Source of the DNA: Verrucomicrobiota bacterium
Lineage (GTDB): Bacteria; Verrucomicrobiota; Verrucomicrobiia; Limisphaerales; UBA9464
NCBI GenBank assembly: GCA_017309115.1
Contig: JAFLEF010000007.1
Location: forward strand, 1 to 64,000
DNA length: 64,000 nt
Direction: 5' to 3'
Numbering within the stretch: position 1 is the stretch's first letter; each line of letters opens with the position of its first letter. This document shows positions 7,325 to 63,274 of this stretch, piece by piece. The notes under the pieces are model-generated. The model saw only the letters and a program-made list of their open reading frames with translations. It had not been told where the DNA came from and did no database searches. Both the position numbers and the translations under genes were made by a program.

Positions 7325-7963
7325 CTAGCTTTGTCGTTGGTGTGACCTCCATTCGGCCGGGGGCCAGTCAGGCAAGGGCTGTCGAAGTTGCCTGAGCAGG
7401 TCACCCATGGTCTTAACCAGCTTGCGGAAGGACCGATTGCGACGATGGGCCAATCCAAGGTCAAAGACCGCACTCATGGCCGGTTGATCACCCATCTCCG
7501 AATACGCACGATGAGCGGGCATGAATTCTTCGAGGGCGCCCTTGGCATCACGCTTTGATTCAGGGTCCGCAGGACCGACGACTTCGTGAGCAATTCCGTA
7601 CTGGCCGCCCAAGGATTCAAGCGCAGCCAGGAACCACGTTTCGTATTCGCGATAGGCGATGACGACATCGCACGGCGTTCCGCCAGCAACCTCGCGCGCC
7701 CATCCACGAACCTGTAACCCGCGCTCTTTGGGACAGTCGTCCTCGCCGTCGAAAAGAATGACGACTGCCGCGCATTCGGGTTGCAGGAGGGCGAGACGGA
7801 CGCCGCTCTGTATTCCATCCTTACTGCGAAGCTGTGATTGGGTGCGCCGGATAGGCCGACCCACGCCGATATGCTGGCAAGCTGCCTCCGCGAGCAAGCG
7901 ACGCAGCAGCACTGGTGCCGCCGCAACTTCGCCGTGACCTTCGACAATGGGATAAACCTTCAC
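7325..7963 (-). CDS. DUF4276 family TOPRIM-like protein, partner of AAA ATPase
   Basis: A 212-residue cytoplasmic protein of the DUF4276 family. TOPRIM-like landmarks are visible: IVEGHGE at 6-12 (catalytic Glu8), an acidic DxD-type cluster FDGEDDC at 71-77, and the family's REYETWFLA near 105-113. TOPRIM folds bind Mg2+ and cleave or join nucleic acid, so this is probably the effector nuclease of the pair; activity is inferred. The GTG start at 7963 overlaps the ATPase stop in the four bases GTGA, so translation is coupled and both products are made together. The arrangement resembles ATPase+TOPRIM systems such as PARIS (AriA/AriB) and other OLD-like pairs, but the TOPRIM protein here belongs to a different family from AriB (DUF4435). 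Confidence 0.85.
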   Translation of the reverse strand: MKVYPIVEGHGEVAAAPVLLRRLLAEAACQHIGVGRPIRRTQSQLRSKDGIQSGVRLALLQPECAAVVILFDGEDDCPKERGLQVRGWAREVAGGTPCDVVIAYREYETWFLAALESLGGQYGIAHEVVGPADPESKRDAKGALEEFMPAHRAYSEMGDQPAMSAVFDLGLAHRRNRSFRKLVKTMGDLLRQLRQPLPDWPPAEWRSHQRQS

Positions 7964-9162
7964 TTGAGAGGCTCAAAAAGGTCGCCGTTTCGAAGATCTT
8001 CCGTGTCGGCAAACAACTCGTCGGCATGGAGTGCGTTGGATCGGAGTAGTTCGCCCGCACCCATGAGATGCTCGCGCATGGCCTTCTTCGCAGCTTCAGA
8101 GGGGGGGAGCAGATGCGACGCCCCTTCGTGCCAGGAGACGATGCGCAGATTGGCATCCGTGATCCATTTGGCGTCCAACAACTCTGGGCTGTGGGTGGTC
8201 ACCATGACTTGCATGGTCTTGGTGGCCTTGCGGATGAGGTCAAGTACCGCACCGAGGGCACCGGGGTGGATGGTGGCTTCGGGCTCCTCGATGACGAGCA
8301 GACTAGGACTGGGCGTCTGGAAAACGGCCATGATGAGACCCAACGAGCGAAGAGTGCCATCGGACATATTGAAAGCATCGAAGGTCAGTTTCTTCTTTTC
8401 GCCCCAGGCCTGAGAAAAACTCATCGAGAGTTTGTTGCCGTGCTTCTTGGGGGAAACGGCCTTGGTCGCTGGGACGATTGATTCCAAGATGCGGTTGATC
8501 TCGGTCTTGGTCGCGGTGGAGGTTTTGCCGCGGAAAAGTTCTTGAAGGACGCTGGCGGCATTACTGCCATCCGGCCGGAGCGCCACGCCGCTGTCTGGAT
8601 CTTGCATTTCCCGAAGCTTGGCGGGCTGAATCGCATACACCCGCATGGCACCAAGAACTCTGAAGATGGGGGCAAAACGTTCGTCGCCACCCACTAGCGG
8701 AAGAGCAAGGGCGGAGGGCTCCAGCGCGGGTGTGAGACCTTCGACATTACTTTTCCACTTGTCCGTACGGTCGAACCACCAGCGGTCGTTCATTTTTCGG
8801 ATCAAGCACTGTTCACGAACTAGGCGATATCCGTAGTTGGGGAGAGCCTTGACCTCGAAGGCAAATCGTCCGCCCTCGATGCCGTTAACGGGGCCAAACT
8901 CGAAAGCCAAGCCAAGGTTAGGCGGATAACTCTGTTGTCCGGAACTTCGATTCCTCACCGCCCCAATTCCCCCACGCCGGTCGAATACCGCCTGAAGCGG
9001 GGAGGCCATCGCTTCTGAAACAAAGCTGAACACGTCAGCTAGGTTGCTTTTGCCAGACCCATTGCGGCCCACGACGAAGAGCGGGTTATCAAAAGCAAGC
9101 GTCGCCGTCGGAAAACTCCGGAAGCGCTTGATAATGATCTTGGTGATGGGCAAGGAATTCAT
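7960..9162 (-). CDS. AAA family ATPase (AAA_21/OLD-like), partner of DUF4276
   Basis: A 400-residue SMC/ABC-like ATPase. The start at 9162 (ATG) has a good ribosome binding site, AGGAG 8 bases upstream, and MNSLPITKIIIKRF is a typical beginning for the family; an upstream start at 9282 would translate a hairpin repeat. Walker A is GRNGSGKS at 32-39, the signature-like MSDGT at 266-270, Walker B LLVIEEPE at 288-295, and the switch histidine in TTHSPELLD around 322-330. These are the parts of an OLD-type ATPase whose TOPRIM domain sits on a separate gene. It is immediately followed by, and overlaps, the DUF4276 gene. Likely role: sensing or clamp ATPase controlling a nuclease, for example in phage defence. 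That function is inferred from family architecture. Confidence 0.9.
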   Translation of the reverse strand: MNSLPITKIIIKRFRSFPTATLAFDNPLFVVGRNGSGKSNLADVFSFVSEAMASPLQAVFDRRGGIGAVRNRSSGQQSYPPNLGLAFEFGPVNGIEGGRFAFEVKALPNYGYRLVREQCLIRKMNDRWWFDRTDKWKSNVEGLTPALEPSALALPLVGGDERFAPIFRVLGAMRVYAIQPAKLREMQDPDSGVALRPDGSNAASVLQELFRGKTSTATKTEINRILESIVPATKAVSPKKHGNKLSMSFSQAWGEKKKLTFDAFNMSDGTLRSLGLIMAVFQTPSPSLLVIEEPEATIHPGALGAVLDLIRKATKTMQVMVTTHSPELLDAKWITDANLRIVSWHEGASHLLPPSEAAKKAMREHLMGAGELLRSNALHADELFADTEDLRNGDLFEPLK

Positions 9163-9175
9163 GTCAGTTGCTCCT
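9154..9175 (-). promoter_or_regulatory. Ribosome binding site that fixes the ATPase start
   Basis: Reading the minus strand, ACAGGAGCAACTGACATG places an AGGAG core 8 bases before the ATG at 9162. This is one of the clearer Shine-Dalgarno sequences in the window and supports this start over the longer reading. Confidence 0.6.
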
Positions 9176-9236: not shown

Positions 9237-9327
9237 GTGGGATGACGCTCCGCGGAGCCGTTCGTAAAGGGAGTCGTGACACGTCATTCGCCGAGACGCG
9301 AACGGCTCGGTGGAACCTCGCCCTACC
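9237..9327 (+). repeat. 92-bp hairpin element, copy c
   Basis: A divergent copy (GTGGGATGACGCTCCGCGG start, CTCGCCCTACC end) lying between the ATPase gene and the binding-protein gene, and followed by a CTCAGCT array at 9347-9370. The outer inverted arms are conserved while the central segment has drifted. Confidence 0.8.
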
Positions 9328-9422
9328 CGGATTTCCCCTTCCGACTTCTCAGCTCTCAGCTCTCAGCTTTCTTCGCCCGCCGCGCTTGCCCATCTGGGGC
9401 CGGGTTCCGTAGGTTTCCGGGC

Positions 9423-10590: not shown

Positions 10591-10738
10591 CTCACTTGGT
10601 GAATCGTCCTCGCAGCCGGTATTCCTTCGGCGCTGACCACCATCGGCCGGTCGGCGGTCCATCCCCACTTGGCTTCGCGTTTGCCTTTCCGCGCCTCCTG
10701 GCGGCGTAATGGCGGCGGATGGCCCCACCGTCCGTCGC

Positions 10739-12115
10739 ATGACGATTCCAGTTCGATTTCCTCGCCGGGCGTTGTTGGCCCTCGAAGTGACCCTACTCAC
10801 TTCGATCGCCGCCAGCGCGGGACAATTCCCCTGGCCGCTGACCGTCCAAACCGCCGAGTCCGGTCTGACAGCCCTGCGGTACACTCCGGCCACCAATCGG
10901 GTCTACGTTCTGCTGAGTGGACCTTCTCTGAGCTCACTTGTTCCGCTGGCGACCAATGTGGAAACGGCCGGCAATGGGGAATTCCTCCTGCCACCGAACA
11001 CTGAAGCTGCCCGGTTCTTCCGCGTCGAACGGCGTTATCTGGTGGCTCCGCCCGCCGCCGTTTGGCGAACCGTGGGTGCGGGTGAATCCCATTCGGTGGC
11101 CCTAAACGAAGCCGGCCAGGTTTGGGTTTGGGGACAGGATCAACTGGGCCAACTTGGCACCGGTGCCGGAAACGCCTCCCAACTTCGGCCGATCATCGGA
11201 CCCACCAATCAAATTTGGACCAACATTCTTTCCGGAGGCGCCCATGTGCTGGCGCAGGATCAGTCCGGGGATTTGTGGGGCTGGGGCCGAAACTCCCGGG
11301 GAGCTTTGGGGCCACAAATTCCCCGAGGCATCGAGTCCCCGGTGTTCATCACCAATCGTCGGCGGGCTGAACGGCTGGGAGCGGGAACCGACCACACTTT
11401 GGCGAGCGAAACCAGCGGCGAACTTTGGGCCTGGGGCCGCGGCGAGGCGACCGCCTTCGACCGCCGACCAGAGCGGGATCATTTCACAGCGATTGCCAGC
11501 GGCGTTGCGGCGGACTGGACTCAACTGTCCGGCGGAACCACCCACACCCTCGCGCTCGACCGAGGTGGCGCTCTGTACGCGTTCGGCTCGAACGAGCGGG
11601 GCCAATTGGGGGATGGAACCCTTGAACGTCGCAATCTGCCCGTACGCGCCGCGACCCAACGAATCTGGCGGTCCGTAGCCGCCGGCGCATTCCATAGTCT
11701 GGCGATCGCGGACGACGGGTCGCTTTGGGCGTGGGGGGCGAACTCCCAGGGCCAACTCGGCGACGGCACTCAAACCGACCGGACGAGCCCCGTGCCGATC
11801 ACGCCGGAACAACGCTGGTCCGCCCTGGCCGCAGGCGAAGGATTCTCTCTCGCTCTCGACACCACCGGAGCGCTCTGGGCCTGGGGCGACAATGCCTCTG
11901 GTCAACTGGGCGACGGGACGTTCCAGCCCCGCCTCGTGCCGCAACGCGTCCTGACCGATCTTCGCTGGAAACTCTTCGCCGCTGGGTCCCGTCATGTCGT
12001 GGCCGTGGCCACGGATGAAACGCTCTGGAGCTGGGGTGAAAATGCGAACGGACAGTTGGGGAACGGAACGGTCACGTCCACCAACTGTCCGGTGTTGATT
12101 CTACCCGACGAGTAA
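10739..12115 (+). CDS. RCC1-repeat beta-propeller protein, exported
   Basis: A 458-residue protein. The ATG at 10739 was taken because it begins a signal peptide (RRALLALEVTLLTSIAASAG); an earlier ATG at 10709 is in frame but adds only ten residues. From about residue 110 there are seven RCC1 repeats of roughly 50 residues with the hallmark SHSVALNEAGQVWVWGQDQ and GQLGDGT motifs, enough to close one propeller. Eukaryotic RCC1 is a nucleotide exchange factor, but bacterial exported copies are simple propellers of unknown function, so a binding or surface role is inferred. It is convergent with the GSDH-like gene, 26 bp apart. Confidence 0.88.
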   Translation: MTIPVRFPRRALLALEVTLLTSIAASAGQFPWPLTVQTAESGLTALRYTPATNRVYVLLSGPSLSSLVPLATNVETAGNGEFLLPPNTEAARFFRVERRYLVAPPAAVWRTVGAGESHSVALNEAGQVWVWGQDQLGQLGTGAGNASQLRPIIGPTNQIWTNILSGGAHVLAQDQSGDLWGWGRNSRGALGPQIPRGIESPVFITNRRRAERLGAGTDHTLASETSGELWAWGRGEATAFDRRPERDHFTAIASGVAADWTQLSGGTTHTLALDRGGALYAFGSNERGQLGDGTLERRNLPVRAATQRIWRSVAAGAFHSLAIADDGSLWAWGANSQGQLGDGTQTDRTSPVPITPEQRWSALAAGEGFSLALDTTGALWAWGDNASGQLGDGTFQPRLVPQRVLTDLRWKLFAAGSRHVVAVATDETLWSWGENANGQLGNGTVTSTNCPVLILPDE

Positions 12116-17342: not shown

Positions 17343-17372
17343 TCTCTCAGCTCTCAGCTCTCAGCTCTCAAC
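17343..17372 (+). repeat. CTCAGCT array overlapping the end of a gene
   Basis: Four CTCAGCT-type units. The stop codon (17354-17356) and the last codons (for LRAES) of the alpha/beta hydrolase on the minus strand lie inside this array. Confidence 0.8.
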
Positions 17373-63225: not shown

Positions 63226-63242
63226 AACCCCTTCCCGCTTCC

Positions 63243-63274
63243 CTCTCAGCTCTCTGCTCTCAGCTCTCAGCTTT
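63243..63274 (+). repeat. CTCAGCT heptamer array
   Basis: CTCTCAGCTCTCTGCTCTCAG with further units; four 7-nt units with one drifted base, 20 bp before the PEP-CTERM stop. Confidence 0.8.

Follow-up and report, generated by a model that had tools for sequence, protein, structure and literature searches.

The described systems closest to the gene pair analyzed here combine an ATPase with a TOPRIM-type nuclease or toxin. AriB, the TOPRIM protein of PARIS, is a tRNA-cutting nuclease of the two-metal type that is disabled by the substitution E26A, according to the available part of the report (PMC12409363). PARIS has been delimited by profile thresholds, given in the accessible text of another study as 32 bits for AAA_15 or 27 bits for AAA_21, and 27 bits for DUF4435 (PMC9122126). 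In E. coli, an AAA ATPase neutralises a RloB-type TOPRIM toxin; the abortive-infection effector AbiLii is a relative of RloB (PMC10440598, available portion). In addition, BREX loci contain TOPRIM-linked OLD-ABC ATPases, which the accessible section of PMC12839542 regards as probable backup effectors. An earlier note on the present DNA had framed the pair as a two-gene OLD-like module in which DUF4276 takes the place of AriB, and this framing meets prior literature, since TOPRIM-linked OLD-ABC ATPases are already published (PMC12839542, same section). A guilt-by-embedding screen was the source of the HEC systems, and the available text of PMC12988326 calls several of them active, mentioning HEC-06; among the matches listed for HEC-01, one use of the name in a defence context was seen, in the accessible part of PMC12724379. 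DUF4276 was not mentioned by name in the literature searched.

The pair occupies positions 7325..9162 of the window, by which we mean the whole stretch of 64,000 nucleotides of Verrucomicrobiota DNA that was analyzed. We read it as a horizontally moving split OLD-ABC/TOPRIM defence module, in which a TOPRIM effector would be under the control of the ATPase, and give this core claim a probability of about 0.72. The ATPase gene starts with ATG at 9162, its stop codon ends at 7960, and the product has 400 aa; the DUF4276 gene starts with GTG at 7963, its stop codon ends at 7325, and the product has 212 aa. The features of the locus are:

9162..7960, minus strand: ABC-type (OLD-like) ATPase gene, HEC-01A (AAA_21, 1.1e-28; PADLOC HEC-01A)
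7963..7325, minus strand: DUF4276 gene, probable TOPRIM nuclease, HEC-01B (PF14103, 2.4e-10; PADLOC HEC-01B; hhalign)
7960..7963, minus strand: GTGA stop/start overlap of the ATPase and DUF4276 genes (sequence)
9171..9175, minus strand: AGGAG, 8 bases before the ATPase ATG (sequence)
9046..9069, minus strand: Walker A GRNGSGKS, ATPase residues 32-39 (sequence and alignment)
8347..8367, minus strand: ABC signature-like MSDGTLR, ATPase residues 266-272 (sequence and alignment)
8278..8295, minus strand: Walker B VIEEPE, ATPase residues 290-295 (sequence and alignment)
8191..8193, minus strand: switch His324 of the ATPase (His 41/56, Gln 15/56 in the alignment)
7940..7942, minus strand: DUF4276 Glu8, probable TOPRIM motif I, VEG (conservation; hhalign)
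7736..7750, minus strand: DUF4276 D72-G-E-D-D76, probable TOPRIM motif II, DxD-like (conservation; hhalign)
7640..7642, minus strand: DUF4276 Glu108, EYETW motif (conservation; hhalign to RloB)
9237..9370, plus strand: interspersed repeat bordering the cassette upstream, outside the system (own-genome matches)

We take the AGGAG to be ribosome-binding-site-like, and the names Walker A, signature, Walker B and switch His are likewise our own attributions to the ATPase motifs. The four-base overlap with which the ATPase gene had been said to end is seen at 7960-7963, and it suggests translational coupling of the two genes. A promoter scan at the cassette found none, and a terminator scan gave a score no better than that of shuffled sequence.

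The ATPase matched the Pfam families AAA_21 (101.7 bits, E 1.1e-28; cut-off 27) and AAA_15 (60.1 bits), as well as the PADLOC HEC-01A model PDLC04178 over residues 4-383 (E 1.4e-101), and all 56 ATPases scanned (56/56) matched HEC-01A models. In the alignment of these relatives, which retained 56 of 96 rows once fragmentary, frame-broken, nearly identical and certain other sequences had been taken out, G32, N34, G37, K38, S267, G269, E293, E295, and Q318 are invariant, and position 324 is His in 41 rows and Gln in 15. All four motifs that had been called intact at first reading, i.e. Walker A, signature, Walker B and the switch His, are present. The ATPase also matched the PADLOC model of AbiLi (1.2e-20) and a 304-position model named AriA. 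The latter match looks generic and is no evidence for PARIS, as 56/56 relatives produce it and AAA_21 has the same length.

The DUF4276 protein matched PF14103 with 41.4 bits (E 2.4e-10; cut-off 30.2) and the PADLOC HEC-01B model PDLC04196 over residues 1-192 (E 1.9e-58). In the alignment of its relatives (61 of 87 rows, filtered in the same manner), D72 and E108 are invariant in all 61 rows, and Glu8 is Glu in 57. Position 74 is occupied by Asp or Glu in 44/61 relatives and by Tyr in 16/61, and position 76 by Asp in 32/61. The earlier note had assigned a TOPRIM pattern to Glu8 and the DGEDD cluster; conservation supports this for Glu8 and D72, and the other positions of DGEDD vary more.

When compared using hhalign, the DUF4276 alignment matched RloB at 94.6% (E 6.5e-8) and the OLD TOPRIM at 76.5% (E 2.2e-5), while the controls stayed at 1.4% (response-regulator), 0.5% (ATPase), and 0.2-0.4% (reversed). 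The target alignments held 25 of 30 loci for RloB, 25 of 30 for OLD, and 29 of 30 for the response-regulator. None of the column shuffles, 100 for each of RloB and OLD TOPRIM, reached the observed DUF4276 score. The EG and D-x-D motifs of DUF4276 are in register with RloB and OLD TOPRIM, and E108 lines up with the FE-W motif in RloB. Taken separately, the clade of the window's protein (21 rows) gave 80.9% with RloB and 3.8% with OLD TOPRIM, and the other 40 rows gave 85.8%, 76.8%, and, for the response-regulator control, 3.2%. DUF4435, used as a single sequence, reached 40.5% against all rows and 0.2% against the window's clade; further DUF4435 sequences were sought among plasmids, and none were found.

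The Pfam scan of the 61 relatives yielded weak matches to OLD-like_TOPRIM in six (best E 0.033), to RloB in one (E 0.23), and to DUF3226 in one. Each of the remaining 16 Pfam families was matched by one relative, four of them with E better than 0.033, and these single-member families look like noise. A PDB profile search with DUF4276 returned no recognisable TOPRIM chain, and PDB sequence searches gave no useful match. Judged by conservation and profile comparison, DUF4276 is very probably a TOPRIM domain, and among the TOPRIM families testable as alignments its profile is closest to RloB.

The best-scoring solved structure for the ATPase profile was the OLD nuclease 6p74 (4.6e-22), and GajA and Retron-Eco8 OLD were also among the structures matched. 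Such matches would suit a DNA-directed nuclease module similar to OLD and Gabija, with the same core and a different target: the ATPase would recognise the ends of DNA or stalled replication, and its TOPRIM partner would nick or degrade phage and host DNA. OLD-type TOPRIM domains do cut DNA, as the available part of PMC10568477 reports. However, SMC proteins and the Retron-Ec83 ATPase almost reach the score of 6p74, so the structure match says little about the target. Moreover, the nuclease of our pair is encoded by a separate gene, like in PARIS and AbiL, and RloB fits DUF4276 better than OLD among the tested TOPRIM families. We regard a DNA-directed module as a candidate, if an unlikely one. 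As it shares the core with the split defence module preferred here, the odds given to the two overlap.

In a scan of 84,980 species genomes, which started from exact peptide patterns of the DUF4276 protein and is no census, an ATPase relative was found immediately upstream of DUF4276 in 22 of 23 loci, and the 23rd locus starts at a contig end. The genome of the window itself (7.5 Mb) has four DUF4276 and four ATPase matches, which form four pairs. Among 288 genomes of the phylum, 42 had a DUF4276 match with an E-value of at most 0.001, and in 34 the match was over the Pfam cut-off. Merging the matches gave 64 places, 59 of them with a same-strand HEC-01A match upstream; pairing here means that matches lie side by side, and the frames are broken in some pairs. 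Over the cut-off, 52 of 54 places were paired and both misses were at contig ends; below it, 7 of 10 were paired, and a profile rescan of the three unpaired weak places found the ATPase upstream of two and ATPase fragments beside the third. The two-gene module proposed from the window is thus conserved in the phylum genomes searched and in all four copies of its own genome, and the claim of a system stands after the adjacency check suggested with it, as DUF4276 genes usually lie next to the ATPase.

The reverse pairing is weaker, as 57 of 116 merged HEC-01A-like ATPase places had no DUF4276 match, in a count made with a HEC-01A model that extends beyond the ATPase family of this pair, with at most six candidates scored per genome, and with 118 of 144 listed rows (the 26 weakest being left out). 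By eye, some ATPase rows, mostly among the 26 omitted, adjoin RloB (for example at G171:C16, G079:C78, and G150:C1).

We measured 75 pairs, with start codons picked by a script. The overlap is exactly four bases in 34 of them, and in 72 the genes overlap or are at most 30 bases apart; the overlap of the ATPase and DUF4276 genes is beyond chance. Tree distances of the two proteins are correlated (r 0.818, 74 pairs), and none of 2000 permutations gave so high a value. Because linked genes are expected to correlate, this demonstrates co-inheritance, not contact. Frame-broken or decayed-looking copies of the ATPase or the DUF4276 gene were observed at L011, L111, L116, L121, L122, and L125, as expected for accessory genes undergoing loss, or for draft assemblies.

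In phages, one of 50,697 records was matched, partially, and exact patterns of the window ATPase had zero matching stretches in viral_contigs. Three of 72,556 plasmids were matched, all from Streptomyces, with an ATPase next door in both of the two examined. In the Streptomyces plasmid NZ_CP107915.1 (L251:3583-11563), the neighbourhood of a HEC-01-like pair includes a gene for a Fic toxin and an ATPase-plus-helicase pair which, judged from annotation, resembles Gabija.

The cassette is flanked by an amylase-family gene and a gene for a sugar-binding-type protein (Pfam), which agrees with the first impression of a pair alone between carbohydrate genes. This site would fit a housekeeping or regulatory role of the ATPase and DUF4276 tied to the adjacent sugar genes. 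However, the cassette is absent from three loci of two same-genus genomes, one in G334 and two in G336, where the amylase-like (58-61%) and sugar-binding (86%) genes adjoin each other in divergent orientation with 125-139 bases between them, and a dehydrogenase gene comes next. In addition, of 14 genome_contigs loci compared, the 10 put to this test showed neither an amylase nor a sugar-binding match next to the pair. A carbohydrate-linked role is contradicted by the empty sites, and we consider it extremely unlikely. Two further genomes were uninformative for the empty site: in G335, the amylase-like and sugar-binding genes are on separate contigs, and in G337 the amylase match is at a contig end and a sugar-binding match was not found. 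Cassette boundaries and a target-site duplication were sought by comparison with the empty sites, and none were definable, as the intergenic DNA gave no clear alignment. Between the sugar-binding and dehydrogenase genes of the window, at 10709-12115, there is an RCC1-repeat-like gene, named from its translation, with no match at that place in the same-genus relatives.

The repeat that borders the cassette upstream is ∼130 bases long and contains runs of the heptamer CTCTCAG. Within the window, it is seen at 135-447, 9237-9370, 17343-17372, and 63242-63271, the last two places having the heptamer run only. With 40 of 542 first-look candidates scored, the segment 9215-9370 had at least 86 matches in its own genome, and some copies form tandem clusters. 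The mobile-looking repeat reported beside the pair is therefore real, but it is genome-wide and not specific to the cassette. A mobile unit borne by the repeat was rejected, since the repeat is genome-wide and was seen on one side only, and comparison with the empty sites gave no definable boundaries.

Evidence for movement of the split module comes from its distribution. Most Rhodocyclales, Elusimicrobia, and Acidobacteria-bin pairs are 78-82% (ATPase) and 68-75% (DUF4276) identical to the window pair, and one Elusimicrobia pair is 64% and 53% identical. The identity of ObgE in Rhodocyclales, Elusimicrobia, and Acidobacteria genomes with similar pairs is 45-48% where found; for instance, one Rhodocyclales genome with an ObgE identity of 48% has a pair with 80.5% (ATPase) and 68% (DUF4276). 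Of 20 genomes queried, 18 had an ObgE match. Its identity is 68-73% in three genomes that carry relatives of the pair, so part of the spread of the pair is among closer kin; outside these three, the ObgE match spans the second half of the protein only, which makes it a rough yardstick. Some of the loci are from metagenome bins, but L007, L009, and L011 are on contigs of 354, 395, and 164 kb, respectively. The similar pairs in other phyla, with ATPase identity far above that of ObgE, point to horizontal movement. The empty sites and the cross-phylum identity agree with the accessory cassette of the earlier note, and suggest that it is also mobile.

Relatives of the pair are found among defence genes more than control regions are, in line with the defence-island check proposed for the locus. 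ORFs within ∼4 kb of 20 pairs (110 ORFs) matched 314 PADLOC models at E 1e-10, compared with 26 models for 115 ORFs from 20 control regions of the same contigs; PADLOC models are redundant, so the numbers are those of models, not genes, and helicases matched in both sets. The control regions were 40-50 kb away for nearly all pairs and ∼90 kb away for one, and the ORFs, called by a script, had at least 120 codons, with those over 1500 aa omitted. When ten large neighbours, picked by hand, were scanned singly, eight matched defence models: PglZ, PglX, a type III methyltransferase, a DrmD-like helicase, BrxC, a ZorD/DpdE-like helicase, a type IIG enzyme, and a type I restriction subunit. In particular, the gene order PglX-ATPase-DUF4276-PglZ-BrxL at L072 places the pair inside a BREX operon, and at L103 BrxC adjoins a HEC-01 pair. 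Proteins with DUF1828 and Schlafen AlbA_2 domains stand beside BrxC and the HEC-01 pair at L103:4740-7834, and are possible further effectors.

Three additional HEC-01-like pairs, all divergent, were observed in the genome of the window (L132, L133, and L134, on contigs C90, C27, and C46, respectively). The C46 copy belongs to a type I restriction operon with the order HsdM-HsdS-pair-HsdR, and the C90 copy is beside a peptidase gene and a PPDK-domain gene (housekeeping). The window copy stands alone, outside any defence island.

The isolation of the window copy between carbohydrate genes could also be explained by a plain toxin-antitoxin pair that stabilises its genome region without a direct antiphage trigger. 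Indeed, the available portion of one study reports that AAA:TOPRIM pairs act as toxin-antitoxin in E. coli, and that another pair neutralised by an AAA protein, whose toxin is not a TOPRIM, did not protect against phage there (PMC10440598). Still, a stand-alone stabiliser would have no need to reside inside BREX or restriction operons, as related pairs do, and we find this explanation improbable. For a defence module, these locations suggest a backup that is triggered when BREX or restriction is blocked.

The genes observed are on the same strand, overlapping, co-inherited, and with intact catalytic-type residues. From the precedents of AriB, the RloB toxin and BREX, we infer that the ATPase is a sensor placed over a toxic TOPRIM nuclease. 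The ATPase would be multimeric and ATP-dependent, and would hold or control the DUF4276 protein. An infection signal would then activate the nuclease; a phage anti-restriction protein is a possible trigger, because relatives of the pair lie within BREX and restriction loci. The putative DUF4276 nuclease would be metal-dependent, acting through Glu8, Asp72, and Glu108, and would cut host nucleic acid, RNA such as tRNA being likelier than DNA by analogy with AriB. We give RNA as the target about even odds. Growth of the infected cell would stop ahead of phage release. As deletion of either gene of PARIS is non-toxic according to the accessible text of PMC9122126, the role of the ATPase as an antitoxin may not hold, and it may either restrain or activate its DUF4276 partner.

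A broader reading, which we find doubtful, is that DUF4276 forms a TOPRIM effector class of its own, filling the place of PARIS in the phylum and guarding BREX and restriction; it would sense phage anti-restriction proteins and cut host RNA unlike the targets of AriB. Behind it is the contrast between DUF4276, found in 42 of 288 genomes (34 over the cut-off), and DUF4435, found in one of 240. With DUF4276 and RloB common in the genomes searched and DUF4435 almost absent, pairs of this kind may represent the principal split defences of OLD type in the phylum. For the split module as such, a domain of unknown function becomes a testable candidate nuclease, with Glu8, Asp72, Glu108 and a coupled ATPase. 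The pair was already catalogued in PADLOC as HEC-01A/HEC-01B, a little-studied candidate system; what we add is the quantified coupling, the link of DUF4276 to RloB-type TOPRIM domains by profile comparison with controls, the empty site, and the differing frequencies of DUF4276 and DUF4435 in the phylum.

Compared with known systems, the window ATPase is similar by profile to those of OLD, Gabija GajA, and Retron-Eco8 OLD, and weak OLD-like_TOPRIM matches occur in 6 of the 61 DUF4276 relatives (best 0.033). Unlike the window pair, which consists of two genes, these proteins (class 1-2 OLD) carry the ATPase and the TOPRIM in one polypeptide. The two-gene OLD-like module of the earlier note is retained as a conserved split pair, with the corrections that it had already been catalogued and that RloB is the closest tested family.

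Like the window pair, PARIS (AriA-AriB) has the ATPase and the TOPRIM on separate genes, and the window ATPase, with 101.7 bits for AAA_21 and 60.1 bits for AAA_15, is over the published PARIS thresholds. DUF4435 was found neither in the window DUF4276 protein (Pfam, up to E 1) nor among the 20 Pfam families matched by its 61 relatives. Membership in PARIS is ruled out by definition, as DUF4435 is missing.

RloA-RloB and AbiLi-AbiLii are similar to the window pair in having an ATPase gene and a gene for a TOPRIM-type partner. By profile, DUF4276 matches RloB best (94.6%), and 30/30 RloB loci have an ATPase matching a HEC-01A-built profile within ∼1.5 kb. The difference is that the window DUF4276 protein has no RloB Pfam match, and one of its 61 relatives has such a match at E 0.23. 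RloB was observed in 44 of 240 genomes of the phylum, and its loci (L171-L200) represent a system parallel to HEC-01.

The closest counterpart is HEC-01. We take HEC to mean Hma-embedded candidate, a candidate system of PADLOC-DB. Comparison of HEC-01 with the window pair revealed nothing that differs: both proteins match the A and B models near full length, and the genes are adjacent on the same strand, adjacency being judged by the four-base overlap rather than by the exact PADLOC rule. By both models and by adjacency, the pair belongs to the catalogued candidate defence system HEC-01.
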